From assembly GCA_903855945.1 (NCBI GenBank), contig CAIOAK010000204.1, forward strand, positions 1-64,000: a stretch of DNA of 64,000 bases, read 5' to 3'. The stretch comes from an uncultured Anaeromyxobacter sp. GTDB taxonomy: Bacteria > Myxococcota > Myxococcia > Myxococcales > Anaeromyxobacteraceae. This document shows, piece by piece, positions 16,043 through 40,816 of the stretch. Each line of letters begins with the position of its first letter. Positions within the stretch are counted from its first letter, which is position 1. The position numbers and the translations under genes were made by a program. The notes below the pieces were generated by a model. It saw only the letters and a list, made by a program, of their open reading frames with translations, ran no database searches and was not told the origin of the DNA.

Positions 16043-17335
<1,293 letters not shown>

Positions 17336-17340: not shown

Positions 17341-18837
<1,497 letters not shown>

Positions 18838-18860
18838 GTGAACGCCCCTTCCCGATGTCC

Positions 18861-20123: not shown

Positions 20124-20157
20124 GGGAGACCGGGCTCGTCGATCGGGGAGGATCGGG

Positions 20158-21561
20158 ATGGCGGCGACCTGGATAGCCGGGGGCACGGTGGTGACCGAGG
20201 AGGGGCGGCGGCGCGCCGACCTGCTCGTCCGGGACGGCGTCGTCGCAGCGGTCGGGCTGTCGCTCGACGTGCCCGCCGGGGCCGCGCGGATCGACGCGGG
20301 CGGCTGCCTCGTCATGCCGGGCGGCATCGACCCGCACACCCACATGCAGCTCCCCACCATGGGCACGGTGGTCGCGGACGATTTCGCGAGCGGCACCGCC
20401 GCGGCCGCCGCCGGCGGCACCACCACCATCCTCGACTTCGTCGGGCCGGAACGGGGCCAGTCCCCCGTGGAGGCGCTCGACACCTGGCGGGGCTGGGCCT
20501 CCCGCTCCACCATCGACTACGGCTTCCACATGACGGTGTCCTGGTGGGGGCCCGGCTTCTCCGCCGAGATGGCGCGCCTCGTCCAGGCCCACGGCGTCAC
20601 GAGCTTCAAGTTCTTCCTGGCCTACAAGGGCGGCCTCATGCTCTCCGACGAGGAGATCGTGAAGGGATTCCTGCGCTGCCGGGAGCTCGGCGCGCTCCCG
20701 CAGGTCCACGCCGAGAACGGCGAGCTCATCGCCCACCTGCAGGCGAAGCTGCTCGCCGAGGGCAGGACCGGCCCCGTGGCGCACGCGCTCTCGCGCCCCC
20801 CCGAGCTCGAGGGGGAGGCCACCCTGCGGGCCGTCACCATGGCCGAGACGGTGGGCGTGCCCCTCTACGTGGTCCACGTGTCGGCGGCCCAGGCGGCCCG
20901 GGCCATCGGCGAGGCTCGTTCACGCGGAGTGAAAATCGTCGGCGAGACCCTGCCCGGCTTCCTGGCCATCGACGATTCGGTCTACGCGTCCCCCGACTTC
21001 GACCAGGCGGCCGGCCACGTCATGAGCCCCCCCTACCGACCGAAGGGGCACCTGGAGGCGCTCTGGCGGGCGCTCGAGAGCGGGGCGCTCAGCACCACCG
21101 GCACCGACCACTGCTGCTTCACCCGCGAGCAGAAGCGGGCCGGGCTGGAGCGCTTCACGCTCATCCCCAACGGCTGCGGCGGGGTCGAGGACCGGCTTCA
21201 CGTCCTCTGGCAACTGGGCGTGAACGGCGGGCGGATCACGCCCGAGAAGTTCGTGTCGCTCACCTCCGGCAACGCGGCCCGCGCCTTCCACCTCTGGCCC
21301 AGGAAGGGGTCGCTGGCCGTCGGCTCCGACGCCGACGTGCTGGTGCTAGACCCCACGCGGGAGAAGACCCTCTCCGCGCGGACCCAGCATCAGCGGACCG
21401 ACTTCTCGGTCTGGGAGGGGCGCACCGTGAAGGGGGTGGTCGTCCACACCCTCTCCCGGGGACGGCACATCTGGGCCGACGGCGACCTGCGCGCCGAGCC
21501 CGGCTGGGGACGCTTCCTGCCGCGGCGCCCCTTCGGACCGGTGTACGAGCGGCTGGTCTGA
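20158..21561 (+). CDS. hyuA: D-hydantoinase/dihydropyrimidinase
   Basis: A 467-residue cyclic-amidohydrolase hydrolysing a hydantoin or dihydropyrimidine-like ring to an N-carbamoyl amino acid. The metal motif GGIDPHTHMQL (His60, His62), the carboxylated lysine position Lys151 in TSFKFFLAYKGG, VHAENGELI, VVHVSAAQAA and TGTDHCCFT are all intact. A good SD (GGGGAGGATCGGG) precedes ATG 20158. It is divergent from ssnA and convergent with the D-aminoacylase-like gene (stops 4 bases apart). Together with the M20 carbamoylase it forms a hydantoinase/carbamoylase pair, consistent with opening of an imidazolidinone or hydantoin intermediate of purine breakdown. A strong dispersed palindrome is at 20919. 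Confidence 0.93.
   Translation: MAATWIAGGTVVTEEGRRRADLLVRDGVVAAVGLSLDVPAGAARIDAGGCLVMPGGIDPHTHMQLPTMGTVVADDFASGTAAAAAGGTTTILDFVGPERGQSPVEALDTWRGWASRSTIDYGFHMTVSWWGPGFSAEMARLVQAHGVTSFKFFLAYKGGLMLSDEEIVKGFLRCRELGALPQVHAENGELIAHLQAKLLAEGRTGPVAHALSRPPELEGEATLRAVTMAETVGVPLYVVHVSAAQAARAIGEARSRGVKIVGETLPGFLAIDDSVYASPDFDQAAGHVMSPPYRPKGHLEALWRALESGALSTTGTDHCCFTREQKRAGLERFTLIPNGCGGVEDRLHVLWQLGVNGGRITPEKFVSLTSGNAARAFHLWPRKGSLAVGSDADVLVLDPTREKTLSARTQHQRTDFSVWEGRTVKGVVVHTLSRGRHIWADGDLRAEPGWGRFLPRRPFGPVYERLV
20919..20933. repeat. dispersed palindrome, strong copy (11/12)
   Basis: TTCACG-CGG-AGTGAA inside hyuA, in codons TCA CGC GGA GTG AAA. TCA and AAA are scarce elsewhere in this gene. Confidence 0.8.
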
Positions 21562-21565
21562 TCGA

Positions 21566-23212
21566 TCAGGCGCTGGGCGGGCTCGTGAGGGTCCGGCCCG
21601 GGAATCGGCGGGGGACGACGAGCCGTCCGTGGTCGAGCACCAGCTCGCCGTGGACCCAGACCATGTCGATCCCCTCGGGCGGCACGAGCGGCGACTCGTA
21701 GTCGTTCCGCTCCCGGACCCTCTCGGCGTCCAGGAGCACGAGCGAGGCATCGGCCCCGGGGCGGAGCGTCGGATCGGGCAGCCGGAGGAAGCGCATCGGG
21801 AGGGTGGCCATCCGGAAGACCATCTGCTCGACGGGGATGCCCATCTCCCGCGCCATGCGCAGCGCCTTCGGGAAGGCGCCCACGGCCCGGGGGTGCGGCT
21901 TCTGCCCCGGGCCGGGCATGAGGCCGTCGGTGCAGATGGCCATGGTCGGGCGCCGGAAGAACCGCTCCACCGTGGCCTCGTTCCCGTAGTGGGTGATGAT
22001 GGCCACCTCGCCCCGGTTCGCGAGGAAGAAGTCGAACACCGCCTCGTACGCAGCCACCGATTCGACGTCGGCGACCCCGGCTGCCCGCGCCACGTCGGCG
22101 AGCCGCTTGCCGAGCCAGGCGTCCCCGACCCCGGCCCTCACGCCCGCGATCTGGATGCCGCCGAGCCCGCCGCAGAAGTGGACGAAGTTGTCCCAGGTGG
22201 TGGTGTCGTGGCGCATCCGCTCGGCGATGCGGGCCCGGGCCAGCGGGTCGGCGAGCCGGGCCAGGAACTCGGCGCGGGAACCCGCCCGGACGTCGGGCGG
22301 GAAGATGGCGTCCCCGGTCGTCGAGCCGGCCGTGTACGGGTACATGTTCTCCATCGTGGGGATGGAGGCGGCCGCGTCGGCGAGCATCGACTCGAGCTCC
22401 CCGACCTTGCCGTAGTTCGAGACCCCCGCGATCTTCGAGTGCTCGTTGCAGTACGCGCCCCCGCCGTCGATGGCCGCCTCGACCACCTCCCGGAGGCTCC
22501 CCACGATGGCGTCGCTCTCGGAGCGCAGGTGCGGGAAGAGGGCGCCCGGCTTCACGTCGTTGAAGGCGCGGACGAGCGCCGTGATCTCGCGCTGGTCCGA
22601 GTAGACCGCGGGGTTGTAGACGAGCCCCGTGGAGAGACCCAGCGTGAGGGGGGCCTCGCGCCGGACCACCTCCGCCATGGCCGCCACCTCGGCGTCGGTG
22701 GCGACCCGGGCCAGGTTCTCCATCACCACCCGGCGAACGGCGGAGTGGCCGAGGTAGAGCCCCATGTCGGTCACCGAGCGACCCCGGTGCCAGTCGAGGA
22801 AGCCGGCCACCGACGACCAGGTCCACTCTCCGTCGATGGCACCGTCGAGCGGGCGCAGCTGGGCCGCGTACTGGGATCGCTGGGCCTCCGCCACCGGCGC
22901 GGGTGACAGGCCGTCCACGCCGCAGATCCGGCGCGTCACACCGCCGAGCACGGCGAGCTCGCAGGCGCGCGGCAGGCCGCTCTCGCCGGGGGCCGTTCCG
23001 CCGAGCGCCCCGTGGTTGTGGGTGTCCACGAAGCCGGGGGCGAGAACCCTCCCCCGCGCCTCCACGACACGATCGGCCGAGGCGGCGTCGGACGGGGGGA
23101 CCGAGCCCATGTGGACGATGACGTCGCCGTCCACGAGGACGTCGCCCGCCTGGGGCGGCGTGACGCCGTCGCCCGTGACGATGCGGGCATCCCGGATGAG
23201 GAGGCGGCTCAC
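21566..23212 (-). CDS. N-acyl-D-amino-acid deacylase-like amidohydrolase
   Basis: A 548-residue amidohydrolase-superfamily enzyme resembling D-aminoacylases, which cleave N-acyl-D-amino acids. The metal motif is GFVDTHNHGALGG. The conserved histidine/cysteine block is LGLSTGLVYNPAVYS. Later come GGAYCNEHSK, THYGNEATVERFF and AICTDGLMPGPGQKPHPRAVGAFPKAL. The C-terminal strand VWVHGELVLDHGRLV is typical. The start is GTG 23212, overlapping the carbamoylase stop as GTGA, so it is translationally coupled to it. Its place between hydantoinase and carbamoylase suggests it deacylates or deformylates an intermediate of the same pathway. The E. coli yge/xdh set, as I recall it, has no such gene. Substrate inferred only. 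Confidence 0.82.
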   Translation of the reverse strand: MSRLLIRDARIVTGDGVTPPQAGDVLVDGDVIVHMGSVPPSDAASADRVVEARGRVLAPGFVDTHNHGALGGTAPGESGLPRACELAVLGGVTRRICGVDGLSPAPVAEAQRSQYAAQLRPLDGAIDGEWTWSSVAGFLDWHRGRSVTDMGLYLGHSAVRRVVMENLARVATDAEVAAMAEVVRREAPLTLGLSTGLVYNPAVYSDQREITALVRAFNDVKPGALFPHLRSESDAIVGSLREVVEAAIDGGGAYCNEHSKIAGVSNYGKVGELESMLADAAASIPTMENMYPYTAGSTTGDAIFPPDVRAGSRAEFLARLADPLARARIAERMRHDTTTWDNFVHFCGGLGGIQIAGVRAGVGDAWLGKRLADVARAAGVADVESVAAYEAVFDFFLANRGEVAIITHYGNEATVERFFRRPTMAICTDGLMPGPGQKPHPRAVGAFPKALRMAREMGIPVEQMVFRMATLPMRFLRLPDPTLRPGADASLVLLDAERVRERNDYESPLVPPEGIDMVWVHGELVLDHGRLVVPRRFPGRTLTSPPSA

Positions 23213-24444
23213 CCGGCCAGCTCTCGCACCAGCCGGAGGAGGACGTCGCCGCCGGCCTGGATGTCGGAGGGCGAGGTGTACTCCTCGACGTTGTGGCTCA
23301 CCCCCTTCGCGCTGGGGACGAAGACCATGCAGGCGGGGCAGACCGACGCGAGGATCTGCGCGTCGTGGCCGGCGCCGGAGGGCAGCCGGCGGACCTCGTG
23401 CCCGAGCTCCCGGGCGATGGCCTCGACCCGGCCGACCAGCGCGGCGTCGAACGCGACCGGCTCGAAGCGGGCCAGCGTGCGCCGGGAGAGGCCGACCCCC
23501 TCCTCCTTCGCCGCCCCCTCCGCGAAGGCGAAGACGCGACGCTCCGCCTCCTTCAGGAGGGTCTCGTCGGTGTTCCGGAGGTCCACCGTCATGACCACCC
23601 GGTTCGCCACCACGTTGACGAGGTTCGGGAACTGGGTGAGCAGCCCCACCGTCGCGACTTGATGGCCGCCCATCTCCGTCGCCACCTGCCTCGCGAAGGT
23701 GGTGATCCGGGCCGCCACGAGCCCGGCGTCGTGGCGCAGGCGCATGGGGGTGGTCCCGGCGTGGTTCGACTGCCCGGTGAGGGTGAACTCGGACCAGGAG
23801 ATGCCCTGCACGCCCTCGACGGCCCCGATGGTGAAGCCCTCGGCTTCGAGCACCGGTCCCTGCTCGACGTGGAGCTCCACGTAGGCGTGGACCTTCCCCT
23901 TCTTCCCTCCCACGGGCGCCGGGCCGGCGTAGCCGATCCGGGCCAGCTCGGCGCCGACCGTCGCGCCGTCGATCCCGGCCGTGGCGAGCGCCTTCTCGAG
24001 CGGCAGCTCGCCGACGAAGGCCAGGCTCCCCATCATGTCGGGCTGGAAGCGGCTCCCCTCCTCGTTCGTGAAGAAGGCCACCGCCAGCGGGCGCCGGGTG
24101 ACGATCCCCGCGTCGTCCAGGGTGGCGAGAACCTCCAGGCCGCCCAGCACCCCCAGGTTGCCGTCGTAGCGCCCGCCGGTCCGGACGGTGTCGATGTGGC
24201 TGCCCATCATGACCGGCGCCAGATCCTCCCGGCCCCGCCGGACGCCGACCACGTTCCCGAGTGCGTCCACGGTGACCGCGAGCCCCATCTCCCGCATCCA
24301 GCCCACCACGAGGTCGCGCCCGGCCCGGTCCTCGTCGGTGAGCGCGAGGCGCGCCACGCCGCCGCCGGCGATCGCCCCCACCTGCCCGAGTTCGGCGATC
24401 CGGCGGCAGAGCCGCTCTCCGTCGATTCGAAGTCCGTCCTGCAT
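23209..24444 (-). CDS. hyuC: Zn-dependent M20 N-carbamoyl-amino-acid hydrolase (hydantoinase/carbamoylase family)
   Basis: A 411-residue amidase of the AllC/HyuC/beta-ureidopropionase group, releasing CO2 and NH3 from an N-carbamoyl (ureido) amino acid. Two metal ions are held by MMGSHIDTVRTGGRYDG, NEEGSRFQPDMMGS and a C-terminal SGAGHDAQ. ELHVEQGPVLEAEG and the dimer-loop FTLTGQSNHAGTTPM are the family signatures. ATG 24444 lies 20 bases after the xdhD stop. The order xdhD-hyuC-deacylase on the minus strand suggests one transcript. It acts downstream of the hydantoinase; the AllC-like sequence would also suit ureido acids made from allantoin-type intermediates. Confidence 0.92.
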   Translation of the reverse strand: MQDGLRIDGERLCRRIAELGQVGAIAGGGVARLALTDEDRAGRDLVVGWMREMGLAVTVDALGNVVGVRRGREDLAPVMMGSHIDTVRTGGRYDGNLGVLGGLEVLATLDDAGIVTRRPLAVAFFTNEEGSRFQPDMMGSLAFVGELPLEKALATAGIDGATVGAELARIGYAGPAPVGGKKGKVHAYVELHVEQGPVLEAEGFTIGAVEGVQGISWSEFTLTGQSNHAGTTPMRLRHDAGLVAARITTFARQVATEMGGHQVATVGLLTQFPNLVNVVANRVVMTVDLRNTDETLLKEAERRVFAFAEGAAKEEGVGLSRRTLARFEPVAFDAALVGRVEAIARELGHEVRRLPSGAGHDAQILASVCPACMVFVPSAKGVSHNVEEYTSPSDIQAGGDVLLRLVRELAG

Positions 24445-24464
24445 CCGGCGCTCCTCTCGCTCCG

Positions 24465-27098
24465 TCAGTGCCAGCTCGACCGGTCTGCGTCGGGGATGCG
24501 CCCCACGTTGATGGCCCGCGCCGCGGGCGAGTCCTTCATGGGCAGCCGCATGCGCCGGACGCCGTCGAAGGCCGCCAGCGCGCCCGCCACCGCGCCGGCG
24601 GTGGGCACGAGGCCGATCTCCCCGACCCCCTTCGCCCCGAAGGGACCCTCGGGCTCCGGGTCCTCGACCAGGATCACCTCGACCTCGGGCATGTGCTGGG
24701 CGCGCAGGACGCCGATGTCGCGGAGACGGAAGGTCACCGGCATGCCGTCCTTGCAGGGGAGCTCCTCGGTGAGCGCGTAGCCGAGCCCCATGTGCACCGA
24801 GCCCTGCACCTGGGCCTCGCACTGCTGGGGGTTGATGGCTCGCCCCACGTCGTGGGCCGCGATGACCCTTTCGAGCACCCCCTTCTCGTCGAGGACCACC
24901 ACCTGGGTGGCCCAGCCGAAGGCGGTGTGGGTCTTCACCTTGCCGTTCTTCGTCTGGCCCGGCGCGGTGGTGTCGTCGATGACGATCTCGCCCGCGTACT
25001 CGCGCCCCGCGAGCTCGTCGAGGGAGTGGCCCCGGTCGAGGTCGGCGCGGAGCTTCCGCGCGGCCTCCACGGCTCCCCGCCCGGCGAGCAGCGTGGCGCG
25101 CGAGCCGGTGGTCTGCCCGGCGCCCAGCTCGAAGCGGCTGTCGATGCGCGGGAGGAAGGTCCGGGCCGGAAGCCCCGTCACCTCCACGGCGCACTGGACG
25201 AGGATGGTGAGGAGTCCCTGCCCCATCTCGGTGAACCCGGCGTACAGCCCCACCGTGCCGTCGCGCTCCACCACGAGGCGGCACTTGCCGGACTCGATGG
25301 CGCCGTTCCCGATGCCGGAGTTCTTGACGCCGCAGGCGATCCCCACGGCGCGACCCCGGCCCCGGGCCTCGTAGTAGGCATCTTTCACTGCGAGTAACGT
25401 CTTCTCCAGGCCGACCGACTTCTCGAGGACCTGCCCGGTCGTGAAGGTGTCCCCCACGCGCAGCCCGTTCCGGAAGCGCATCTCCCAGCCGTCGAGACCC
25501 ACCTTGGCCGCCAGGAGGTCGATGCAGCCCTCCATCGCGAAGGCGGTCTGGTTCACGCCGAAGCCGCGCATGGCGCCGCAGGGCGGGTTGTTCGTGTAGG
25601 CGGCGACGGCGTCCACCCGCACCGCCGGCACGCGGTAGGGGCCGCAGGCGTGTCCGGCGGCCCGCTCGATCACCTTTCCGCCGACCGACGCGTAGGCGCC
25701 CGAGTCGCCGAGGAGGTCCACCTTCGCGCCGGTGAGGCGCCCCTCGGCGTCGCATCCGACCGTGTAGTTCATGGTGATGGGGTGGCGCTTCGGGTGCATC
25801 CGGATCGACTGCTCCCGGTCGAGGACCAGGCGAACCGGGCGCCCGGTCTTCCGCGCCAGGAGCGCGGCCTGGGCCTGGACGCTCATGTCCTCCTTGCCGC
25901 CGAAGGCGCCGCCGTTCGGGACGAGCTCGACGAACACCCGGTCCTCGGGCTCGCCGAGCACCGCCGCCACCTGGCGCCGGTCGTCGAAGATCCCCTGCCC
26001 CTGCGTGTAGAGGTGGAGCCGCCCGTCGGGGAGCGGCACCGCGATGGCGGCCTCCGGCTCGAGGAAGAGGTGCTCGATCCGCTGGGTGGCCCAGGTGCCG
26101 CTGACCACGTGGGCCGAGGCCTGGAGCGCCGCCTCCACGTCGCCGCGCTCGATCCGGGTGACGGAGAGCACGTTCGCATGCTTCGGATTCACCTGCGGCG
26201 CTCCCGGACGGATGGAGTCGGCCGGGTCGAGCACCGGCGGCAAGGGCTCGTACTCCACCTCCACGAGCGCGGCCGCCTGCCGCGCGACGTGCGCGCTCTC
26301 GGCAGCCACCGCGGCGACCACGTCGCCCACCGCGCGGACCTCCTCCCCCTCGGCCACGAGCACGGGCCAGTCCCTGTAGACGAGCCCCACCCAGCGGTCG
26401 CCCGGGACGTCACGGGCGGTGACGACCGCCACCACGCCGGGCAGGGCCCGCGCCCGCGCCGTGTCGATGCGCACCACCCGCGCGCGCGCGTGCGCGGAGA
26501 GCGTCACCGCCCCGTGCAGCATGCCGGCGAAGGAGAGGTCGGCGACGAACGGGCGATCCCCGAGCGCGAGCTCCCCGCCCTGGTAGCGCACGAGCCGCGA
26601 TCCCACGCCCCCGTCGGTCACGAGCGGCGGCATCGCGCCGCCGCGCTTCACCGACTGGATGAGCTCCACCGCGTCCACGATCTTCACGTAGCCGGTGCAG
26701 CGGCACAGGTGGCCGTCGAGCCCCTTCGCGATCTCGTCGCGCGTGAGCACGCGGTCCTGGTCGGTGAGCCACTTGATCCGCAGCGTCAGGCCCGGCGTGC
26801 AGAAGCCGCACTGGACCCCGGCCGCCACCTGGAAGGCCTCCGCGTAGAGCTTTCGCTCCGCGGCCGGGACCCCCTCCAGCGTCAGGACGGCCTTGCCGTC
26901 CACCTTGGCGGCCGGGACCGAGCAGGAGGTCTTGGGATTCCCGTCGACGAGCACGAGGCAGCAGCCGCACTGCCCCTGGGGCGAGCAGGCGTCCTTCGGG
27001 GAGGTGATCCGGAAGGTCTCGCGCAAGAGCTCGAGGAGGGACTCGCCCGGCCGTGGCTCGGCCTGCCTGGGTGCGCCGTTCAGGTGGAAGGTGATCAT
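24465..27098 (-). CDS. xdhD: fused Fe-S/molybdopterin hydroxylase, XdhD/Se-dependent xanthine dehydrogenase type
   Basis: An 877-residue fusion of a [2Fe-2S] module and a xanthine-dehydrogenase molybdopterin module, without FAD. The first cluster uses the Cys at 38, 44, 46 and 47 in DACSPQGQCGCC; the second uses QCGFCTPG and HLCRCTGY. The Mo part shows GGAFGGKEDMSVQ, CGAMRGFGVNQ and the active-site GPFGAKGVGEIGL. This architecture is that of E. coli XdhD and of proteins called selenium-dependent xanthine dehydrogenase. ATG 27098 has GGAGG upstream and a -10-like TAGAAT (27111-27116). It is divergent from ygfK by 68 bases. Electrons must leave via another protein, perhaps YgfK. Selenium dependence is family knowledge, not visible here. 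Confidence 0.9.
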   Translation of the reverse strand: MITFHLNGAPRQAEPRPGESLLELLRETFRITSPKDACSPQGQCGCCLVLVDGNPKTSCSVPAAKVDGKAVLTLEGVPAAERKLYAEAFQVAAGVQCGFCTPGLTLRIKWLTDQDRVLTRDEIAKGLDGHLCRCTGYVKIVDAVELIQSVKRGGAMPPLVTDGGVGSRLVRYQGGELALGDRPFVADLSFAGMLHGAVTLSAHARARVVRIDTARARALPGVVAVVTARDVPGDRWVGLVYRDWPVLVAEGEEVRAVGDVVAAVAAESAHVARQAAALVEVEYEPLPPVLDPADSIRPGAPQVNPKHANVLSVTRIERGDVEAALQASAHVVSGTWATQRIEHLFLEPEAAIAVPLPDGRLHLYTQGQGIFDDRRQVAAVLGEPEDRVFVELVPNGGAFGGKEDMSVQAQAALLARKTGRPVRLVLDREQSIRMHPKRHPITMNYTVGCDAEGRLTGAKVDLLGDSGAYASVGGKVIERAAGHACGPYRVPAVRVDAVAAYTNNPPCGAMRGFGVNQTAFAMEGCIDLLAAKVGLDGWEMRFRNGLRVGDTFTTGQVLEKSVGLEKTLLAVKDAYYEARGRGRAVGIACGVKNSGIGNGAIESGKCRLVVERDGTVGLYAGFTEMGQGLLTILVQCAVEVTGLPARTFLPRIDSRFELGAGQTTGSRATLLAGRGAVEAARKLRADLDRGHSLDELAGREYAGEIVIDDTTAPGQTKNGKVKTHTAFGWATQVVVLDEKGVLERVIAAHDVGRAINPQQCEAQVQGSVHMGLGYALTEELPCKDGMPVTFRLRDIGVLRAQHMPEVEVILVEDPEPEGPFGAKGVGEIGLVPTAGAVAGALAAFDGVRRMRLPMKDSPAARAINVGRIPDADRSSWH
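25384..25398. repeat. dispersed palindrome copy (10/12)
   Basis: TTCACT-GCG-AGTAAC within xdhD. On the coding strand the codons are TTA CTC GCA GTG AAA, all but GTG and CTC being unusual here. Confidence 0.7.
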
Positions 27099-27166
27099 CG
27101 CTGGCCCTCCATTCTATGCGAGCGTCGCCCTCGACGCCTGCGCCGAAATCGGGGAGAAGGAGGGCA

Positions 27167-29239
27167 ATGGAACTCGTCCCGGTCCCGTTCGGCGTCCTCG
27201 TGAACCGACTGTTCACGGAGATCACCCGGAAGAAGGCCGCCTTCGACCTGCCGGCCCGCCACTTCTCCCTCGGGGACCCGGCGCGGGACCTGTCGGTCTC
27301 GATCCACGGCCACCGGGCGTCCAGCCCGCTCGGCCCCGCCGCCGGGCCGCACACCCAGCTCGCCCAGAACATCGTCCTCTCCTGGCTCGCCGGCTGCCGG
27401 GTCATGGAGCTGAAGACCGTCCAGGTGAAGGACGATCTCGTCATCCCCCGCCCCTGCATCGACATGCAGACGGTGGGCTTCAACGTCGAGTGGTCGCAGG
27501 AGCTCACGCTCGAGCGGTCGCTGGAGGAGTACGTCAAGGCGTCGATGCTCATCGAGATGCTGAAGGGCTCGGGAGTCCTCCCGGGGCTCTCGCCGGGCTT
27601 CGGGGACACCGTCTTCGACATGAGCGTGGGTTACGACCTGGCCGGCATCCGATCGCCTCGCGTCCAGGCCTTCGTGGACGGACTCCTCGACGCCGGGAGG
27701 GTGATCGAGCGGCTCCGCGACCAGGTTCCCGCCGGGTGGCGCCACCTGCGCGACCTGCCCTTCCCGACCCGGATCTCCGACACCCTCACCCTCTCCACGT
27801 TCCACGGATGCCCCCCGGAGGAGATCGAGGGGATCGGCGAACATCTGCTGCGCGACCTGGGGCTGCACCTCGTGGTGAAGCTCAACCCCACGCTGCTCGG
27901 GCCGGACGAGCTCCGCGCCATCCTGCGCGACCGGCTGGGCTTCGCCGAACTCGCCGTCCCCGACTCCGCCTTCGAGAAGGACGCGCGGTGGAGCCAGGTG
28001 GTCGGATTCGTCGAGCGGCTGGGCGCGCTGGCCGAGGCGAGGGGGCGCGGCTTCGGAGTGAAGTTCACGAACACGCTGCTCGTCCGGAACCACAAGTCCT
28101 TCTTCCCGGCGACGGAGAAGGAGATGTACCTCTCGGGCGCCCCCCTCCACGTGCTCGCGATGGCGCTCGTGCAGCGCTTCCGCCGCCGGTTCGGGGATCG
28201 GTACCCGATCTCCTTCTCGGCGGGGATCGACGCGGCCAACTTCCCCGACGCGGTGGCGCTCGGGCTCAAGCCGGTGAGCGTCTGCACCGACCTCCTCCGG
28301 GCCGGCGGATACGGGCGCACCCGGAACTACCACGCCGAGCTCTTCCGTCGCATGGACGCGGCCGGGGCGACCGACCTCGACACCTTCGCCATCCGGGGTC
28401 TCGGCCAGGGCGAGGCCGCGCTCGCCTCGCTCGGCCTGCCGGAGGCTGCTGCCGCCGCGTGCCGCGCGGCGCTCCAGGGCAAGGGCGACCTGCGCGATGC
28501 CGCTGGACCGGCATTCGACGCCTGGGTCTCCGCCGCCCGGCTCCGGAACACCGACGTCCACCTCGAGCGGGCCCTCGAGGACCCGCGCTACGCGGCCGCG
28601 AAGAACTCCACGCCGCCGAAGAAGGTCGGTTCGTCGCTCACGCTCTTCGACTGCCTCACCTGCGACAAGTGCATCCCGGTCTGCCCGAACGACGCCAACT
28701 TCGCGCTCCCCATGCCGAAGGGGGCGGTGCGGCTCGAGCGGCTCGTCCCCGGCGCGGCGGGGTTCACGCTCGAGCTCGTGGGGGAGACGCCCGTCGAGGA
28801 GGCCCACCAGATCGCCAACTTCGCCGACGCCTGCAACGAGTGCGGCCACTGCGACGTGATGTGCCCGGAGGACGGCGGCCCCTACGTGGTGAAGCCCCGC
28901 TTCTTCGGCAGCGTGGAGGCCTGGACGCTGGCCCCCGCCCGCGACGGGTTCGCCCTCGAGCGAAGCGGGGACGCCATCCGCATGCACGGCCGGTTCGGGA
29001 CCCGCACCTTCGTCGTGGAGAGCGGCGCGGGCCCCGTGCGCTACCAGGGTGAGGGCTTCGACCTTCGGCTCGACCCGTCCGATCCGGCCCGGACCGCTCG
29101 AGGTGTGGCGAGCGGTCCCGTCGACCTCGGTTACCTCCGCATCATGGAGCGACTCCGCGAAGCGGTGACCGCTCCGGACGCGGTGAACTTCGTGAGCGCA
29201 GCACTCTCCGTCGTCGCGCCGGCGGCGCGGCAGGGTTAA
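27167..29239 (+). CDS. ygfK: YgfK-like iron-sulfur oxidoreductase subunit, short form
   Basis: A 690-residue protein matching the N- and C-terminal parts of YgfK, the flavin/Fe-S protein found with xdhD and ssnA. Residues 1-480 are a dihydroorotate-dehydrogenase-like barrel (LVPVPFGVLVNRLFTEI, GPHTQLAQNI, MELKTVQVKDDL, STFHGCPPEEIEGI, VKLNPTLLG). A [4Fe-4S] motif CLTCDKCIPVCPNDANF starts at residue 496 and a second, CNECGHCDVMCPEDGGPY, at 556. YgfK proteins I know are about 1,000 residues because a GltD-like FAD/NAD(P)H module precedes the ferredoxin part; that module is absent. SD GAGAAGGAGGGC precedes ATG 27167. It is cotranscribed with xdhA (10-base gap). Probably reduces a purine ring intermediate; inference. 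Confidence 0.85.
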   Translation: MELVPVPFGVLVNRLFTEITRKKAAFDLPARHFSLGDPARDLSVSIHGHRASSPLGPAAGPHTQLAQNIVLSWLAGCRVMELKTVQVKDDLVIPRPCIDMQTVGFNVEWSQELTLERSLEEYVKASMLIEMLKGSGVLPGLSPGFGDTVFDMSVGYDLAGIRSPRVQAFVDGLLDAGRVIERLRDQVPAGWRHLRDLPFPTRISDTLTLSTFHGCPPEEIEGIGEHLLRDLGLHLVVKLNPTLLGPDELRAILRDRLGFAELAVPDSAFEKDARWSQVVGFVERLGALAEARGRGFGVKFTNTLLVRNHKSFFPATEKEMYLSGAPLHVLAMALVQRFRRRFGDRYPISFSAGIDAANFPDAVALGLKPVSVCTDLLRAGGYGRTRNYHAELFRRMDAAGATDLDTFAIRGLGQGEAALASLGLPEAAAAACRAALQGKGDLRDAAGPAFDAWVSAARLRNTDVHLERALEDPRYAAAKNSTPPKKVGSSLTLFDCLTCDKCIPVCPNDANFALPMPKGAVRLERLVPGAAGFTLELVGETPVEEAHQIANFADACNECGHCDVMCPEDGGPYVVKPRFFGSVEAWTLAPARDGFALERSGDAIRMHGRFGTRTFVVESGAGPVRYQGEGFDLRLDPSDPARTARGVASGPVDLGYLRIMERLREAVTAPDAVNFVSAALSVVAPAARQG

Positions 29240-29249: not shown

Positions 29250-30665
29250 ATGCCCGCAGGCATCCGCTTCCTCCTCGACGGCAAGGTCCGGGAACTCGAC
29301 GGGATCGACCCGACGTGGACGGTCCTCGACTGGCTGCGGGGGGAGGAGCGCCGCTGCGGCTCGAAGGAGGGCTGTCGGGAGGGGGACTGCGGCGCCTGCA
29401 CCGTCGTGCTCGCGGAGCTCCACCGGGGAGAGCTGCGCTACCGGGCGGTGAACGCCTGCATCCTCTTCGTGCCCGCCCTCGACGGGAAGGCGCTCCTCAC
29501 CGTGGAGAGCCTCTCCTCGCCGGGAGAGGCGCTCCATCCGGTGCAGGCGGCCATGGTGGAGTGCCACGCCTCCCAGTGCGGGTTCTGCACGCCCGGATTC
29601 GTGATGTCGCTCCTCGCCCTCTACGAGAGCGAGCCCGCACCGTCCCGGGAGCGGGTGAACGAGGTGCTGGCGGGGAACCTGTGCCGCTGCACCGGCTACC
29701 GGCCCATCGTGGAGGCCGCCGGGCGCGCCTTCGAGCGGGGCGGCGGACCGCGCCTCGCCGCGCACCAGGCGGCGCTCGCGGCCCAGCTGTTCGCCATCGC
29801 CCGCACCGGTACCCTCGTGGTGGAGGGCGCCGGACGGCGCCTCTTCGCGCCCCGGACGGCCGACGCCCTCGCCGACCTCCTGCTCGAGCACCCCGAGGCG
29901 CACATCCTCGCCGGCGGAACCGACGTCGGCCTCCAGGTCACGAAGCAGCACCGGGAGCTCCACACCCTCGTCTCCCTGGGCGCCGTCGAGGAGCTCTCGG
30001 AGGCCGTCCGGACGCGGACCCACGTGGAGATCGGCGCGGCCGCCACCTACACCGACGCCCTCGCCGTCCTCTCCGGTCCCTTCCCGTCTCTCGCCGCGCT
30101 CGTGCGCCGCATCGGCTCCCAGCAGATCCGGAACACCGGGACCCTCGTCGGCAACGTGGCCAACGCCTCCCCCATCGGCGACACGATGCCCGCGCTCCTC
30201 GCCCTCGGCGCCTCCGCCGTGCTCCGGCGGGGAGCGGACCGCCGGGAGATCCCCCTCGACGACTTCTTCCTCGCCTACCGCAGCACGGCCCTGCAGCGCA
30301 GCGAGTTCATCGAGCGGATCCGCCTGCCGCTGCCCCGGCCCGGGCTTCGCTTCGCCACCTACAAGGTCTCGAAGCGGCGGGACCAGGACATCTCCGCGGT
30401 CTGCGGCGCCTTCGCGGTGACCCTCGAGCGCGGGCGCGTGCGCGAGGCGCGGCTCGCCTTCGGCGGGATGGCCGCGACGCCCAGGCGGGCGGTCGCCTGC
30501 GAGGCCGCGCTCCTGGGGAAGCCCTGGACGGAGGAGACCGTGGCGTCCGTGCTCCCGGTGCTCGACGGCGAGTTCCAGCCCCTCTCCGACATGCGGGCGA
30601 GCGCCGCCTACCGGACGCTCGTGGCCCGCAACCTGCTGCGGCGATTCCAGGCGGAGGCGACGTGA
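29250..30665 (+). CDS. xdhA: xanthine dehydrogenase small subunit, [2Fe-2S] + FAD
   Basis: A 471-residue small subunit carrying both iron-sulfur clusters and the FAD domain. The first cluster has Cys36, 42, 47 and 50 in CGSKEGCREGDCGAC; the second has QCGFCTPGF and NLCRCTGYRP. The FAD-binding domain begins near residue 200 with LAGGTDVGLQV and continues with GSQQIRNTGTLVGNVANASPIGD. It passes electrons from the molybdenum centre in XdhB to NAD+. It starts 10 bases after ygfK and overlaps xdhB (GTGA). The length is typical of the proteobacterial XdhA (about 480). Confidence 0.95.
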   Translation: MPAGIRFLLDGKVRELDGIDPTWTVLDWLRGEERRCGSKEGCREGDCGACTVVLAELHRGELRYRAVNACILFVPALDGKALLTVESLSSPGEALHPVQAAMVECHASQCGFCTPGFVMSLLALYESEPAPSRERVNEVLAGNLCRCTGYRPIVEAAGRAFERGGGPRLAAHQAALAAQLFAIARTGTLVVEGAGRRLFAPRTADALADLLLEHPEAHILAGGTDVGLQVTKQHRELHTLVSLGAVEELSEAVRTRTHVEIGAAATYTDALAVLSGPFPSLAALVRRIGSQQIRNTGTLVGNVANASPIGDTMPALLALGASAVLRRGADRREIPLDDFFLAYRSTALQRSEFIERIRLPLPRPGLRFATYKVSKRRDQDISAVCGAFAVTLERGRVREARLAFGGMAATPRRAVACEAALLGKPWTEETVASVLPVLDGEFQPLSDMRASAAYRTLVARNLLRRFQAEAT

Positions 30666-33001
30666 GCGCTCCCCGGAAGACCCGCCCGGCTGTCCACGCC
30701 CCTCTCCCCCACGACAGCTCCGAGCGGCACGTGCGCGGCGACGCCCTCTACGTGGACGACCTCCCGGAGCCCAGGGATCTCCTGCACGCCTTCGTCCGCC
30801 TGAGCGAGAGGGCGCACGCGCGCATCCTGCGTCTCGACGTGGGGCCGGTGCCCGGCTCGCCCGGCGTCGCGGCGGTGATGACCGCCTCCGACCTCCGGCA
30901 CGGGAATGCGATCGGCCCGGCCTTCCCCTGGGACCCCGTCTTCGCCGACGGGACGGTCGAGTACTTCGGCCAGTCGCTCTTCGCCGTCGCCGCCGACACG
31001 GTGGAGAACGCCCGGCGGGCCGCCCAGCGGGCGGTGGTGGAGTACGAGGATCTCCCCGCCATCCTCACCATCGAGGAGGCGCTCGCCCAGGGCTCGTTCG
31101 TCCTGCCCACCGAGGTGATGCGGCGCGGCGATCCACCGGCCGCGCTCGCCCGCTCCCCCCGCCGCCTCTCCGGGCGCCTCCACATGGGCGGCCAGGACCA
31201 CTTCTACCTCGAGGGGCAGGTCGCCATGGCCATCCCCCGCGAGGGCGGCGCGCTGCACGTCTTCAGCTCCACGCAGGCCCCCACCGAGGTCCAGCACCTC
31301 GTGGCCCGGACGCTCGGGAAGGCCTACGGCGAGGTGACCGTCGAGGTCCGGCGCCTCGGCGGCGGCTTCGGCGGAAAGGAGACGCAGGCCGCCCTCATCG
31401 CCGTGATCGCCGCGCAGCTCGCCGACCGCACCGGCCGCCCGGTCAAGCTGCGGCTCGACCGGGACGACGACATGCTGCTCACCGGGAAGCGGCACGACTT
31501 CCTCGTCGACTACGACGTGGGGTTCGACGGCGCCGGGCGCATCCTCGGCCTCGACCTCGTGCTCGCCTCCCGCTGCGGGATCTCCGCCGACCTCTCCGGC
31601 GCGGTGAACGACCGGGCCATGCTCTCCGCCGACAACTGCTACTGGCTCCCCCACCTCTCGGTCACGTCGCACCGCTGCCGGACGAACACGGTCTCCAACA
31701 CCGCATTCCGGGGATTCGGCGGGCCGCAGGGGGTGATGGCCATCGAGTGGGTGGTGGACGAGGTGGCCCGGGCGCTCGGCAAGGACCCCCTCCAGATCCG
31801 GCGGCGGAACCTCTACGGGACCCGGACCCGCAACACCACGCCCTACGGGATGAGGCTCGACGAGAACCCCATGCCGGCCATCCTCTCCGAGCTGGAGCGG
31901 AGCGCCTCCTACGCGGCGAGGCGGAAGCAGATCGCGGCCTTCAACGCGGCGAGCCGCTTCTCCCGGCGGGGGCTCGCGCTCACGCCCGTCAAGTTCGGGA
32001 TCTCCTTCACGGCCACCCACATGAACCAGGCCGGCGCGCTCGTCCACGTCTTCACCGACGGAAGCGTCCAGCTCTCCCACGGCGGGATCGAGATGGGGCA
32101 GGGACTGCACGTGAAGGTCGCGCAGGTGGTGGCCGACGAGCTCGGCGTCGGGATCGACCGGGTCCGGGTCATGGCCACCAGCACCGAGAAGGTGCCGAAC
32201 ACCTCGCCGACGGCCGCCTCCACCGGGAGCGATCTGAACGGCAAGGCGGCCGAGGCCGCGGCCCGGAACATCCGCCGGCGCATGGCCCGCCTGGCGGCCG
32301 GGCACCTGGGCGGCCGCCCCTCGGCCGCGGTCTTCGAGGGCGGGAGCGTGCGCATCGGGAGACGCGCCATGCCCTTCGCCGCGGTCGCGAAGCTCGCTCA
32401 CGTCGAGCGGGTCTCCCTCTCGTCCACCGGCTTCTACCGCACACCGCTCGTCCACTGGGACCGCGGGACGTTCCGGGGGCGCCCCTTCTACTACTTCGCC
32501 TGGGGCGCCGCGGTCTCCGAGGTGGAGATCGATCTCCTCACCGGGGAGTACCGGGTCGTGCGGGTGGACATCCTCCACGACTGTGGCGGCTCCCTCAACC
32601 CGGCCATCGACCGCGGACAGGTGGAGGGCGGCTTCGTCCAGGGCATGGGCTGGCTCACCACCGAGGAACTCTGGTGGGATCCGAAGGGGCGGCTCGCCAC
32701 CCACGCACCTTCCACCTACAAGATCCCGGCCTGCAGCGACGTGCCCGAGGACTTCCGCGTGACGCTCCGGCTCGACGAGGGGAACCGGTTGCCGACCGTG
32801 CGCCGGTCGAAGGCGGTGGGCGAGCCTCCGGTCATGCTGGCCATCTCCGTGTTCCACGCGCTGAAGGACGCGGTGGCCGCCTCCGCCGACCACCGGGCCA
32901 GCCCCCGGCTCGACGCGCCGGCCACGCCGGAGCGCGTCCTCCTCGCCGTCGAGGAGCTTCGCCAGCGCCTCGCCGCGCCCCCTCCGGAGACCTCCCGGTG
33001 A
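30662..33001 (+). CDS. xdhB: xanthine dehydrogenase molybdopterin-binding subunit
   Basis: A 779-residue large subunit hydroxylating hypoxanthine and xanthine to urate at the Mo centre. It has RRLGGGFGGKETQA, NTAFRGFGGPQGVMAIE (active-site Arg), SHGGIEMGQGLHVKVAQVVADEL and the catalytic-glutamate region SKAVGEPPVMLAI, all matching the XdhB family in length and order. Start GTG 30662 overlaps the xdhA stop and the gene's own stop overlaps xdhC, giving a tightly coupled xdhABC. It is clearly different in architecture from the XdhD-type enzyme encoded 3.5 kb upstream, so the window has two separate purine hydroxylases. Confidence 0.96.
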   Translation: MSAPRKTRPAVHAPLPHDSSERHVRGDALYVDDLPEPRDLLHAFVRLSERAHARILRLDVGPVPGSPGVAAVMTASDLRHGNAIGPAFPWDPVFADGTVEYFGQSLFAVAADTVENARRAAQRAVVEYEDLPAILTIEEALAQGSFVLPTEVMRRGDPPAALARSPRRLSGRLHMGGQDHFYLEGQVAMAIPREGGALHVFSSTQAPTEVQHLVARTLGKAYGEVTVEVRRLGGGFGGKETQAALIAVIAAQLADRTGRPVKLRLDRDDDMLLTGKRHDFLVDYDVGFDGAGRILGLDLVLASRCGISADLSGAVNDRAMLSADNCYWLPHLSVTSHRCRTNTVSNTAFRGFGGPQGVMAIEWVVDEVARALGKDPLQIRRRNLYGTRTRNTTPYGMRLDENPMPAILSELERSASYAARRKQIAAFNAASRFSRRGLALTPVKFGISFTATHMNQAGALVHVFTDGSVQLSHGGIEMGQGLHVKVAQVVADELGVGIDRVRVMATSTEKVPNTSPTAASTGSDLNGKAAEAAARNIRRRMARLAAGHLGGRPSAAVFEGGSVRIGRRAMPFAAVAKLAHVERVSLSSTGFYRTPLVHWDRGTFRGRPFYYFAWGAAVSEVEIDLLTGEYRVVRVDILHDCGGSLNPAIDRGQVEGGFVQGMGWLTTEELWWDPKGRLATHAPSTYKIPACSDVPEDFRVTLRLDEGNRLPTVRRSKAVGEPPVMLAISVFHALKDAVAASADHRASPRLDAPATPERVLLAVEELRQRLAAPPPETSR

Positions 33002-33774
33002 CGACCTGGATCGAGGCGCTCGCGGGCCTGTCGGCTCGCGGCGAGCCGGCCGTCCTCGTCACCGTCCTGCGCGCCGACGGGTCCACGCCCCGGGGGGCGG
33101 GCACGAAGATGGTGATCTCCGCCGCGGGGGCCCAGGGGACCATCGGCGGAGGGCACCTGGAGCTCGAGGCCACCCGCGCGGCCCGGGAGATGCTTGCCGC
33201 CTCGGCGGTCGGCGAGCCCCCGCCTCCGTTCTCGCGCGACTTCGGCCTCGGGCCCAGCCTGGGCCAGTGCTGCGGGGGCGCCGTCACCCTGCTCTTCGAG
33301 GCGATCCTCCCGCCCCGCTGGAACGTCGCGCTCTTCGGGGCCGGCCACGTCGGGCGGGCGCTCACGAGGCTGCTCGGCGACCTGCCCTGCCGGGTGGACT
33401 GGTTCGATTCCCGTCCGGGCGAGTTCCCCGGCGACCTGCCCGCGAACGTGCGCGCCGTGGTCACCGACGATCCCGAGGGGGAGGTCCGCGACCTGCCGCC
33501 CGGGTGCGACCTCGTCATATTCACTCACAGTCACGATCTCGACCAGGCCATCGTCGCCGCGGCGCTCCGGCGCCGGGATCTCGGCTACCTCGGGCTCATC
33601 GGATCGCGCACCAAGCGGGCCCGCTTCGAGGCCCGGCTCCGCGAGCGGGGGTTCTCCGACGCGGACCTCTCCCGGCTCGTCTGCCCCATCGGGCTGCCGG
33701 GGGTCGGAGGCAAGGAGCCGGCCGAGATCGCCATCTCGGTCGCGGCCCAGCTCCTGCAGCTGCGCCCGGGCTAG
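32998..33774 (+). CDS. xdhC: xanthine dehydrogenase accessory protein XdhC
   Basis: A 258-residue Moco-insertion/sulfuration chaperone for XdhAB. The N-terminal XdhC/CoxI domain has GSTPRGAGTKMVI, GTIGGGHLE and the Moco-binding LGQCCGGAVTLLFE. The C-terminal Rossmann domain has VALFGAGHVGRAL and the late block GSRTKRARFEARLRERG. GTG 32998 overlaps the xdhB stop. The stop is in a CTAG shared with the convergent guanine deaminase. A dispersed palindrome at 33520 falls in VIFTHSHD, using the rare codons ATA, ACT and AGT. Confidence 0.95.
   Translation: MTTWIEALAGLSARGEPAVLVTVLRADGSTPRGAGTKMVISAAGAQGTIGGGHLELEATRAAREMLAASAVGEPPPPFSRDFGLGPSLGQCCGGAVTLLFEAILPPRWNVALFGAGHVGRALTRLLGDLPCRVDWFDSRPGEFPGDLPANVRAVVTDDPEGEVRDLPPGCDLVIFTHSHDLDQAIVAAALRRRDLGYLGLIGSRTKRARFEARLRERGFSDADLSRLVCPIGLPGVGGKEPAEIAISVAAQLLQLRPG
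33520..33534. repeat. dispersed palindrome copy (10/12)
   Basis: TTCACT-CAC-AGTCAC in xdhC, in phase TTC ACT CAC AGT CAC, with ATA just before. Its codon phase differs from the majority class, so a shared amino-acid motif cannot explain it. Confidence 0.68.
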
Positions 33775-34241
33775 TAACGGACCCGGTCGGCCTTCCGCTC
33801 CCAGTCCTCGAAGGGGGTGCGCGCCTCGCCCGGCAGGAGCTGGACCATCGGGATGCTCCGCTCGGCGATGCCCTTCGCCACCTGCTCGTAGATGCTGGCG
33901 TCGTCGAAGCCGATGCGGGCCGCGTCGGCACGCCCGTTCCCGTAGCAGATGCGCCCGATGCGCGCCCAGTAGATGGCGGAGAGGCACATGGGGCAGGGCT
34001 CGCAGCTCGCGTAGATCTCGCAGCCCGAGAGGTCGAAGCGCCCGAGCGCCGCGCAGGCGGCGCGGATGGCCACCACCTCGGCGTGGGCGGTGGGATCGTT
34101 CGTCGAGGTGACCTGGTTGAACCCCTCGCCGACGATGCGTCCACCCTGGACCACCACCGCGCCGAAGGGGCCGCCTCGCCCCTCCTCGAGCCCCTGCCGG
34201 GAGAGCGCGATGGCCCGCCGCATGAAATCCTTCTCGTCCAT
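33771..34241 (-). CDS. guaD: guanine deaminase (CDA fold)
   Basis: Converts guanine to xanthine, feeding xanthine dehydrogenase. The 156-residue product equals the length of the Bacillus GuaD type. The zinc site is THAEVVAIRAA (His and catalytic Glu) plus CEPCPMCLSAIYWARI (two Cys). The C-terminal DDASIYEQVAKG ... PGEARTPFEDWERKADRVRY is the domain-swapped tail characteristic of this guanine deaminase, distinguishing it from TadA. ATG 34241 is chosen; longer in-frame starts add a non-conserved tail. It is convergent with xdhABC, its stop sharing CTAG with xdhC. Confidence 0.92.
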   Translation of the reverse strand: MDEKDFMRRAIALSRQGLEEGRGGPFGAVVVQGGRIVGEGFNQVTSTNDPTAHAEVVAIRAACAALGRFDLSGCEIYASCEPCPMCLSAIYWARIGRICYGNGRADAARIGFDDASIYEQVAKGIAERSIPMVQLLPGEARTPFEDWERKADRVRY

Positions 34242-34355
34242 CCCGGTCCCCTTCCCCGCTCCGATCCGCGCGAGGCGCCACGCCGTCACCGCGTGGAGGG
34301 ATGGTAGTACGGAAGGCGCCCCTTTTCTCGGTCCTCCTCCGGTGGCGAAATGCGA

Positions 34356-34401: not shown

Positions 34402-35535
34402 TTACTTCCCCGACGGAACCTTGCCCTCGACGCCCTTCACGTAGAAGTTCACCGCGCCGTTCCACTTGTCGTCACCGACCACGCCCTTCGCGAGGACCTC
34501 CTTGCCGGTGTTGTCCAGGAGCGGACCCTGGAATGCCGCCACCGTGCCGGCCTTCATGCCCGCCTTGGCGTCCTCGACCTTCTTCTTCGTCGAATCCGGG
34601 ATGAAGGTGGCGAGGGCCACGAACTCGGGCAGCCCTTCCTTCACGCCCCACTTCGTCGCCTCGGTCTTCCAGGTCTTGTTGAGGACGTCGCCGATGGCCT
34701 TGTCGTAGTAGAGGCCCCAGTTCAGCCGTGCCGAGCCCAGGTGGGCCTTGGGGGCGAACGCGCTCATGTCGCTGTCCCAGCCGAACGCGTACTTGCCGTT
34801 CTTCTCGGCCGTCTGCAGCACCGCCGTGGAGTCGGTGTTCTGGAGCAGCACGTCGGCCTTCTGGTTGATGAGCGACTGGGCCGCCTCGGCCTCCTTCGGG
34901 GGATCGAACCAGCTGCCCACCCAGACGACCTTGGTCTTCACCTTCGGGTTGACGCTCAGCGCACCCAGCGTGAAGGCGTTGATGTTGCGGAGCACCTCGG
35001 GGATGGGGAACGAGCCCACGAAGCCGATGACGTTGGTCTTGGTCATCTCGCCGGCCACGATGCCCGCGAGGTAGGCGTCCTCGTAGAAGCGCCCCTCGTA
35101 CACCCGGAGGTTCGGGGCCATCTTGTAGCCCGTGGCGTGCTCGAAGTAGACGTCCGGGAAGTCCTTGGCGACCTTCTCCATCGAGTCGCCGAAGCCGAAC
35201 GAGGTGGCGAAGATGACCTTGTTGCCCTGGGCGACCAGGTCGCGGATGACGCGCTCGGCGTCCGGACCCTCGGGCACCTTCTCGACGAAGGTGGTCTTGA
35301 TGCGGTCTCCGTACTTCGACTCCGCGTACTTGCGCCCCAGGTCATGGGCGAAGGTCCATCCGGCGTCTCCCACGGGACCGACGTAGACGAATGCGACCTT
35401 GAGCGGCTCGGGCTTCGCCGGAGCGGCGACGGGCGCCTCGGGCTTCTTCGGCTCCTCCTTGGCGCAGGCGAGCAGGGTGCCTGCGCCCAGCACCGCGATG
35501 AGGGCCAGGTTCTTCAACGACGAGCGACGGTTCAT
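34402..35535 (-). CDS. BMP/PnrA-family ABC transporter substrate-binding lipoprotein
   Basis: A 377-residue lipoprotein that captures substrate for an ABC importer; characterised BMP (PnrA-like) proteins bind purine nucleosides. A basic start and hydrophobic core lead to the lipobox TLLAC with Cys24, followed by a Pro/Lys/Glu-rich linker. The family blocks VAFVYVGPVGDAGWTFAHDLGR, FATSFGFGDSM, YEGRFYEDAYLAGIVAGEMTK and GWDSDMSAFAPKAHL follow. It is the last gene of cassette A (ATPase-permease-permease-BMP), 55 bases after the permease stop. Nucleoside or base specificity is supported by the surrounding purine genes but not proved. Confidence 0.92.
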   Translation of the reverse strand: MNRRSSLKNLALIAVLGAGTLLACAKEEPKKPEAPVAAPAKPEPLKVAFVYVGPVGDAGWTFAHDLGRKYAESKYGDRIKTTFVEKVPEGPDAERVIRDLVAQGNKVIFATSFGFGDSMEKVAKDFPDVYFEHATGYKMAPNLRVYEGRFYEDAYLAGIVAGEMTKTNVIGFVGSFPIPEVLRNINAFTLGALSVNPKVKTKVVWVGSWFDPPKEAEAAQSLINQKADVLLQNTDSTAVLQTAEKNGKYAFGWDSDMSAFAPKAHLGSARLNWGLYYDKAIGDVLNKTWKTEATKWGVKEGLPEFVALATFIPDSTKKKVEDAKAGMKAGTVAAFQGPLLDNTGKEVLAKGVVGDDKWNGAVNFYVKGVEGKVPSGK

Positions 35536-35590
35536 GGATTCGTTTCTCCTCTTCCGGGTACGGGTATCTACGGCGTGGGGTGCTGCTGCT

Positions 35591-39107: not shown

Positions 39108-39167
39108 GCTCGGGATGCCCTCGCCGCCGCCATCGAAGGGCGGCATACTACGATCCAGGAGGCGCGG

Positions 39168-39653
39168 ATGGGGTCCCCGATCGACGAAATGATGCTGCGA
39201 AGGTGCATGGACGTCGCGCGTCGAGCCATGGGGCACGGGAACCACCCGTTCGGCGCCATCCTCGTCGATGCGCGGGGAAATGTCCTCATGGAAGCGGAGA
39301 ACGGCTACCTGCCCTCGCGGGACATGACGGCCCACGCCGAGCGGCTGCTCGCCACGCGGGCCTCGGCGGCGTACCGCCCTGAATTCCTTGCCTCTTGCAC
39401 CCTTTACGCCTCCGCCGAGCCTTGCGCGATGTGTGCCGGGGCCGCCTACTGGGCCGGCTTCGGGCGGGTGGTCTACGCCCTGGGGGAGAAGCGGCTCAAG
39501 GAGATCACAGGAAACCACCCCGAGAACCCGACGCTCGACGTGCCCTGCCGGGTCGTGCTGGGGGGTGGCCAGCGCCGGGTGGAGGTCGTGGGACCGCTCC
39601 TCGAGGAGGAGGCCGCCGAGCTCCACCTGATGGCATGGCGAAGCAGCGGGTAA
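39168..39653 (+). CDS. nucleoside/base deaminase, CDA fold
   Basis: A 161-residue zinc deaminase. HAERLLATRA supplies the His ligand and catalytic Glu, and AEPCAMCAGAAYWAGFGRVVYAL supplies the two Cys. The N-terminus (LRRCMDVARRAMGHGNHPFGAILVD) and the tail with ITGNHPENPTLDVPC resemble small guanine/cytosine-type deaminases rather than tRNA TadA, since the tail lacks TadA's usual C-terminal helix. A strong SD (CCAGGAGGCGCGG) precedes ATG 39168. It starts the plus-strand unit that continues with importer B. Exact base unknown; it is a second deaminase besides guaD. Confidence 0.85.
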   Translation: MGSPIDEMMLRRCMDVARRAMGHGNHPFGAILVDARGNVLMEAENGYLPSRDMTAHAERLLATRASAAYRPEFLASCTLYASAEPCAMCAGAAYWAGFGRVVYALGEKRLKEITGNHPENPTLDVPCRVVLGGGQRRVEVVGPLLEEEAAELHLMAWRSSG

Positions 39654-39678
39654 CCCGGCCGCCCGATCTTCGCGCATC

Positions 39679-39699: not shown

Positions 39700-39799
39700 T
39701 CGGACGTTGCGTGAAGGTCGACGAAGGAAGGGCCGGACGAGCTGTGGTCCGCCCGACGGAATTCCGCTAGATTCTCCCGCCCCGACGAGGAGGAGCATC

Positions 39800-40795: not shown

Positions 40796-40816
40796 CGGGT
40801 CGCCCCTGGGCCCCGC

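Follow-up and report, generated by a model that had tools for sequence, protein, structure and literature searches.

How do electrons reach a YgfK-type reductase that lacks the module for NAD(P)H and FAD? The question is raised by the window, the whole 64,000-nucleotide stretch of DNA from an uncultured Anaeromyxobacter sp. that was analysed here, which encodes a short relative of YgfK. The reductive urate pathway to which YgfK belongs became known in 2025 through work on gut bacteria (Li et al. 2025, PMC12507026). The E. coli enzyme XdhD-YgfM makes yanthine (2,8-dioxopurine) by reducing urate, and YgfK, with NAD(P)H and SsnA, the opener of reduced yanthine, carries yanthine to ureidomethyl-hydantoin (UMH); HyuA, YgeW or UacY, YgeY and YgeX act downstream (PMC12507026). 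C. difficile UacX, which has an FMN site and no FAD domain, substitutes for YgfK, with an XdhD partner without YgfM, and ferredoxin has been proposed as its donor (PMC12507026). C. sporogenes XdhAC reduces urate with an artificial donor, and a commentary of 2025 counts the natural electron donor of FAD-less XdhAC among the things still to be discovered (PMC12990295). Among related enzymes, FAD-less PydAc, a dihydropyrimidine dehydrogenase, reduces uracil with reduced ferredoxin, and PreT-PreA is a known split form in which PreT serves PreA (PMC7332683). The reaction, the pathway and the principle of FAD-less variants are already known; a YgfK subfamily without the GltD-like module appears to be new, none being described in the papers searched for YgfK, UacX and yanthine.

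Architecture of the short YgfK

The short ygfK is a single open frame of 690 codons with no internal stops (Table 1). Its start at 27167 matches the MAELxP opening of homologues; an alternative in-frame ATG lies at 27116. The sole NCBIfam match was TIGR03315 (Se_ygfK) at 386.8 bits (best stretch, residues 4–398 on model positions 5–398), under half the curated cut-off of 835.3 bits and so outside the range of an equivalog. BLASTP aligned residues 5–414 to the 1032-aa E. coli YgfK at 39% identity and, in a second, weaker match, residues 396–609 to E. coli 809–990, the C-terminal Fe-S domain. E. coli residues ~430–870, the GltD-like FAD/NAD(P)H module, found no counterpart; a GxGPAG motif was absent from the window protein, and a Pfam scan returned ferredoxin-like domains only, with no Rossmann or Pyr_redox domain. 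An earlier sequence-only reading had described a YgfK-like barrel with both Cys clusters, a first ferredoxin motif at residue 496 and no NAD(P)H/FAD module, and each of these points stands: cluster 1 opens at C496 and cluster 2 at C556. Since these motifs equal those that come after the GltD-like module in long YgfK, the difference from the long form is an internal absence of about 400–450 residues, not a C-terminal truncation.

Chance, a frameshift artefact or truncation are excluded by some 88 non-redundant short homologues, by 74 columns invariant across 70 of the homologues (all eight Fe-S cysteines included) and by a confident AlphaFold2 model built from the 70-homologue input (pLDDT 94.6, pTM 0.94). 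A Foldseek search of the PDB with this model ranked dihydropyrimidine dehydrogenase and dihydroorotate dehydrogenase at the top, and because the predicted fold is of this type the barrel would be expected to bind FMN. Searched by sequence, the PDB gave no match to the window protein, and only ferredoxin-domain matches to the homologue profile. In the barrel, 56 residues do not vary among the short forms; 50 of these are retained by E. coli YgfK and 51–55 by other long forms, despite an overall identity of just 39–47% between short and long forms; for this reason the two forms probably share the same active site. The invariant Cys215 was considered as the equivalent of the catalytic Cys671 of dihydropyrimidine dehydrogenase (DPD), but the PreA profile alignment places the two close and out of register, and the mapping is not claimed.

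Spread and origin of the short form

Searching the genomes of 84,980 species with the window protein yielded 80 loci, a set biased towards query-like sequences, and the GltD module was absent in 79 of them. The sequence-only reading had allowed that the family might normally lack the module, which is true of the short subfamily and untrue of YgfK overall. Named carriers of the short form span at least 11 phyla and are mostly environmental bacteria. In a tree of 101 barrels, 88 short forms split from 12 long ones with support of 99 (SH-aLRT, quick search); one long YgfK on a long branch, L119, alone was placed among the short forms when the tree was free. A tree in which all short forms were held together had the better likelihood, and a single clade was not rejected (AU p 0.77). 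Motif 1 also separates the forms: it reads C-x2-C-x3-C-x2-C-x3-CP in 13/13 long forms, E. coli YgfK showing this five-cysteine spacing, versus C-x2-C-x2-C-x3-CP in nearly all short forms, the window protein's C-x2-C-x2-C-x3-C included. The tree separation, the spread over many phyla and the distinct motif spacing together indicate that the split is old, and the GltD-less form is a distinct YgfK subfamily rather than a damaged YgfK. No family model among those searched covers the short forms.

The exceptional L119 protein (L119:67-3264), a Planctomycetota YgfK of 1135 aa, carries a GltD module, yet its barrel groups with those of short forms in the free tree; a recombinant or a long-branch artefact are possible explanations.

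The window copy sits in a clade of 23 made up mainly of Alpha- and Betaproteobacteria, and three congeners of the source genome lack a short YgfK. For these two reasons it was probably acquired horizontally.

A candidate urate gene cluster around the short ygfK

The stretch 17341–29239 links genes for XdhD, short YgfK and SsnA-like, HyuA-like, UacY-type, YgeY-like and YgeX-like proteins in one cluster (Table 1). With a candidate for each step, the window may encode a nearly complete reductive urate pathway. The same kind of neighbourhood recurs: across many phyla, short ygfK lies repeatedly near SsnA, XdhD, HyuA, UacY/YgeW, M20/YgeY and PLP lyases.

Table 1. Coordinates of the short ygfK, its domains and the neighbouring purine genes in the window.
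Feature	Position	Strand	Support
PLP-dependent lyase	17341-18837	-	PF00291; kept beside short ygfK in ~32 loci
SsnA-like aminohydrolase	18864-20105	-	PRK07203 275 bits, TIGR03314 259 bits, both below cut-offs; PF01979
HyuA-like D-hydantoinase/dihydropyrimidinase	20158-21561	+	TIGR02033 558.7 bits, above cut-off
UacY-type amidohydrolase (D-aminoacylase-like)	21566-23212	-	PF07969
Hydantoinase/carbamoylase (M20-like) amidohydrolase	23209-24447	-	TIGR01879 404.9 bits, above cut-off
XdhD/XdhAC-type fused [2Fe-2S]-molybdopterin hydroxylase without FAD domain	24465-27098	-	TIGR03311 896.2 bits, cut-off 830.45
Short YgfK	27167-29239	+	Single open frame, 690 aa
Short YgfK, DHODH/DPD-like FMN barrel (predicted)	residues ~1-410		
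Short YgfK, helical linker	residues ~415-490		
Short YgfK, [4Fe-4S] motif 1	C496-x2-C-x2-C-x3-C506		
Short YgfK, [4Fe-4S] motif 2	C556-x2-C-x2-C-x3-C566		
Short YgfK, C-terminal domain			Beta-rich
Xanthine dehydrogenase small subunit ([2Fe-2S] + FAD), xanthine to urate	29250-30665	+	TIGR02963 631.8 bits, above cut-off
Xanthine dehydrogenase molybdopterin subunit	30662-33001	+	TIGR02965 1191 bits, above cut-off
XdhC, xanthine dehydrogenase maturation factor	32998-33774	+	TIGR02964 283.5 bits, above cut-off
dCMP/cytidine deaminase-family protein	33771-34289	-	PF00383
Nucleoside/B6-type ABC transporter: BMP-like binding protein and two permeases	34402-37635	-	

The FAD-less XdhD, divergent from short ygfK with 68 bases between them as the earlier reading had noted, is a candidate urate-to-yanthine reductase. 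It shares 25.6% identity with E. coli XdhD, whose Glu606, suggested as important, aligns with a gap and is therefore uninformative about substrate specificity. Although it passes TIGR03311, a model for selenium-dependent XDH, a search of the 99% complete source genome with TIGR03309 (YqeB) gave no match at E≤0.001, so that its selenium dependence is doubtful, or is served by other accessories. The UacY-type enzyme belongs to the same family, PF07969, as C. difficile UacY (PMC12507026). The M20-like amidohydrolase is a candidate for cleavage of the ureido group, the role of YgeY, and the PLP lyase for the final lyase step, the role of YgeX. The deaminase-family protein is a candidate guanine deaminase.

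Two families of PLP-dependent lyase occur at short-ygfK loci, one CysK-like (32 loci) and one threonine-synthase-like (26 loci); examples are 17341-18837 in the window, L047:4242-5759 and L042:7998-9293. These recurrent lyases may replace YgeX, a diaminopropionate ammonia-lyase. Beside the purine cluster, a xanthine phosphoribosyltransferase gene lies at about 15500–15990, within a minus-strand frame of 15501–17300 the remainder of which is probably non-coding. With its ATPase included, the BMP-type ABC transporter extends over 34402–42334; models for putative B6 transporters matched it below cut-off, and import of a purine or nucleoside is plausible.

Partners of the short YgfK

Among 195 Myxococcota genomes surveyed with the barrel alone as query, the short form was found in 17 (frames of 632–781 aa, of which one is incomplete at the edge of its contig) and the long form in 12 (the contig ending within one of the frames), with both forms in a single genome. 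The partner XdhD switched with the form of YgfK: FAD-less XdhD was present in 15/16 short-only versus 1/11 long-only genomes (p=1e-5), and E. coli-type XdhD in 11/11 long-only versus 0/16 short-only genomes (p=8e-8), with a gene for the FAD subunit adjoining it in all eleven. Counted by genus, the switch stood at 12/12 and 9/9. A fixed pairing of short YgfK with FAD-less XdhD holds in Myxococcota and is broken both ways elsewhere: short YgfK occurs with FAD-linked XdhD in L092, L094, L096, L103 and L115, and in Enterococcus faecalis and Collinsella a long YgfK (~1000 aa) has a FAD-less ‘selenium-dependent’ XDH as its partner. The pair of short YgfK and FAD-less XdhD is consequently not obligatory, and exceptions in both directions imply that the two reductive steps can be wired independently.

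In two Alphaproteobacterial loci, short ygfK is followed on its own strand by a gene for a YfhL-type 2[4Fe-4S] ferredoxin, after 24 bp in L046 and after 5 bp in L118. Such a gene also occurs downstream of the hyuA that adjoins short ygfK in L057, and beside ssnA in L082, making about four of some 80 short loci with one nearby; none was found near the short ygfK of the window. No electron-carrier gene was universal beside short ygfK across the loci, the recognisable neighbours being pathway enzymes. The source genome encodes pyruvate:ferredoxin oxidoreductase (PFOR) and a YfhL ferredoxin. PFOR was present in 14/17 genomes with short YgfK versus 49/178 others in the Myxococcota survey; since the difference between short-only (13/16) and long-only genomes (6/11) was not significant (p=0.21), PFOR may instead mark anaerobic life.

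Some loci have further features. In Collinsella, a gene for a 4Fe-4S binding protein lies between long ygfK and the FAD-less xdh (L201:16994-17473), and its product is a candidate carrier for XdhAC. At L057 (14033-21861), from Propionivibrio dicarboxylicus, a divergent gene for a fused GltD and PyrK-like oxidoreductase (PRK12779) is found near short ygfK, hyuA and the ferredoxin gene, and a 1662-aa PFOR-like protein is also encoded beside the short-ygfK genes. Two short-ygfK loci (L092:9995-18268 and L103:9995-18395) have an E. coli-type XdhB/C/D set and, directly downstream of ygfK, a conserved membrane-transporter-like protein.

Source of electrons

From the partner switching, the adjacent ferredoxin genes and the distribution of PFOR, with PydAc as precedent, we infer a ferredoxin-type carrier. 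Short YgfK is, more likely than not, the yanthine-dearomatising reductase of the reductive urate pathway, served by such a donor instead of NAD(P)H. The donor would be a low-potential carrier of single electrons in its reduced state, with a 2[4Fe-4S] ferredoxin charged by PFOR as the likeliest candidate; its electrons would travel over the two [4Fe-4S] clusters of short YgfK to the barrel FMN and there reduce the purine ring, and SsnA would open the product, pulling the reaction forward. The neighbouring FAD-less XdhD probably uses the same type of carrier for the conversion of urate to yanthine. Points that weigh against this reading are the scarcity of ferredoxin genes at short loci, the failure of PFOR to separate short from long genomes, the broken pairings outside Myxococcota, the SsnA-like score under its family cut-off and the missing Glu606 in the XdhD of the window. 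The sequence-only reading had held that the short form would need another electron partner, naming XdhD and a ferredoxin: the need is upheld, and ferredoxin fits better than XdhD, which is not supported as a feeder.

A separate NAD(P)H:FAD protein resembling GltD or PreT might instead serve short YgfK, leaving NAD(P)H as the donor. PreT-PreA is a precedent for a split enzyme of this kind, and GltD-like proteins are encoded at several places in the source genome, C91, C148 and C96 among them. Against this, the L057 gene is the sole GltD module found nearby among the ~80 short loci, motif 1 of short YgfK has neither the fifth Cys nor the spacing found in all 13 long forms, and the GltD-like proteins of the source genome have similar-length counterparts in congeners without short YgfK. 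Such counterparts argue against a dedicated partner in trans, not against a shared one. The earlier suggestion to look for the missing module elsewhere in the genome therefore turned up no dedicated GltD partner, either near the gene or in the rest of the source genome, and a split enzyme seems rather unlikely.

The sequence-only reading had suggested a reductase fed directly by purine hydroxylation, which would mean electrons passing from molybdenum to the YgfK clusters in a complex of XdhD with short YgfK. The two genes are divergent neighbours in the window and often adjacent elsewhere, abutting for instance in L106, and their products co-occur strongly in Myxococcota. Yet the characterised XdhD-type enzymes act as urate reductases (PMC12507026, PMC12990295), a separate and complete xanthine dehydrogenase for oxidation is encoded next door, and the exceptional pairings occur in both directions. 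Direct feeding is not supported because XdhD would have to run oxidatively, when it probably consumes electrons, and this arrangement is improbable. There is an equally slim chance that FAD-less XdhD and short YgfK are physically joined in a unit that shares electrons; both reductive steps from urate to dihydroyanthine would then draw on a single carrier-docking site, or electrons would move between molybdenum and FMN, and this reductive stretch of the pathway would bypass NAD(P)H.

The same class of chemistry on another substrate, such as a different oxopurine or a pyrimidine, or a role in selenate reduction as the family name says, could be argued from a score far below the YgfK cut-off, from a likeness confined to the barrel and Fe-S domain and from a fold general to pyrimidine and orotate enzymes, but is improbable given the conservation of nearly all YgfK-invariant barrel residues, the recurrent linkage to SsnA and downstream urate enzymes and the absence of the TIGR03309 Se-maturation protein from the source genome.

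Comparison with related enzymes

E. coli YgfK (TIGR03315) and the short form have in common a homologous barrel with its core residues, the C-terminal [4Fe-4S] pair and a gene context of SsnA, HyuA and XdhD; they differ in motif 1 and in the module that is present in the 1032 aa of the one and missing from the 690 aa of the other. C. difficile UacX resembles short YgfK in its FMN-type barrel (FMN being assigned to the latter from the fold), the absent FAD domain and a FAD-less XdhD partner. UacX is a PF01180 (DHO_dh) protein, whereas the window protein gave no match to PF01180 at E<1, so the two are set apart by family assignment, not by direct sequence comparison. Matches to PF01180 at E≤0.01 were found in 4/70 short forms and were weak; for want of this match in the window protein, its membership of UacX was rejected.

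Clostridial PydAc is an analogue, having an FMN barrel with Fe-S domains and no FAD or NADPH domain. It acts in a pyrimidine pathway, has two ferredoxin domains (four clusters) versus two clusters in short YgfK, and is only remotely homologous. E. coli PreA and mammalian DPD share the fold and the order of FMN barrel followed by a [4Fe-4S] pair, with a weak profile match for PreA (hhalign E 1.7e-4) and ~15% identity in structural alignment for DPD. PreA, however, is served by PreT, the FAD/NADPH module of DPD is fused to it, and their substrate is uracil, unlike that proposed for short YgfK.

Implications

Surveys based on the YgfK model would overlook organisms with the short form, for which ‘selenate reductase subunit’ is a misleading label. 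The pairs of adjacent ygfK and ferredoxin genes provide concrete proteins with which the donor can be tested. Besides the NAD(P)H-driven YgfK and the FAD-less UacX, the short subfamily seems to provide one more solution, as yet without annotation: a widespread compact version of the enzyme, through which one pathway has apparently been wired to different cellular power supplies.
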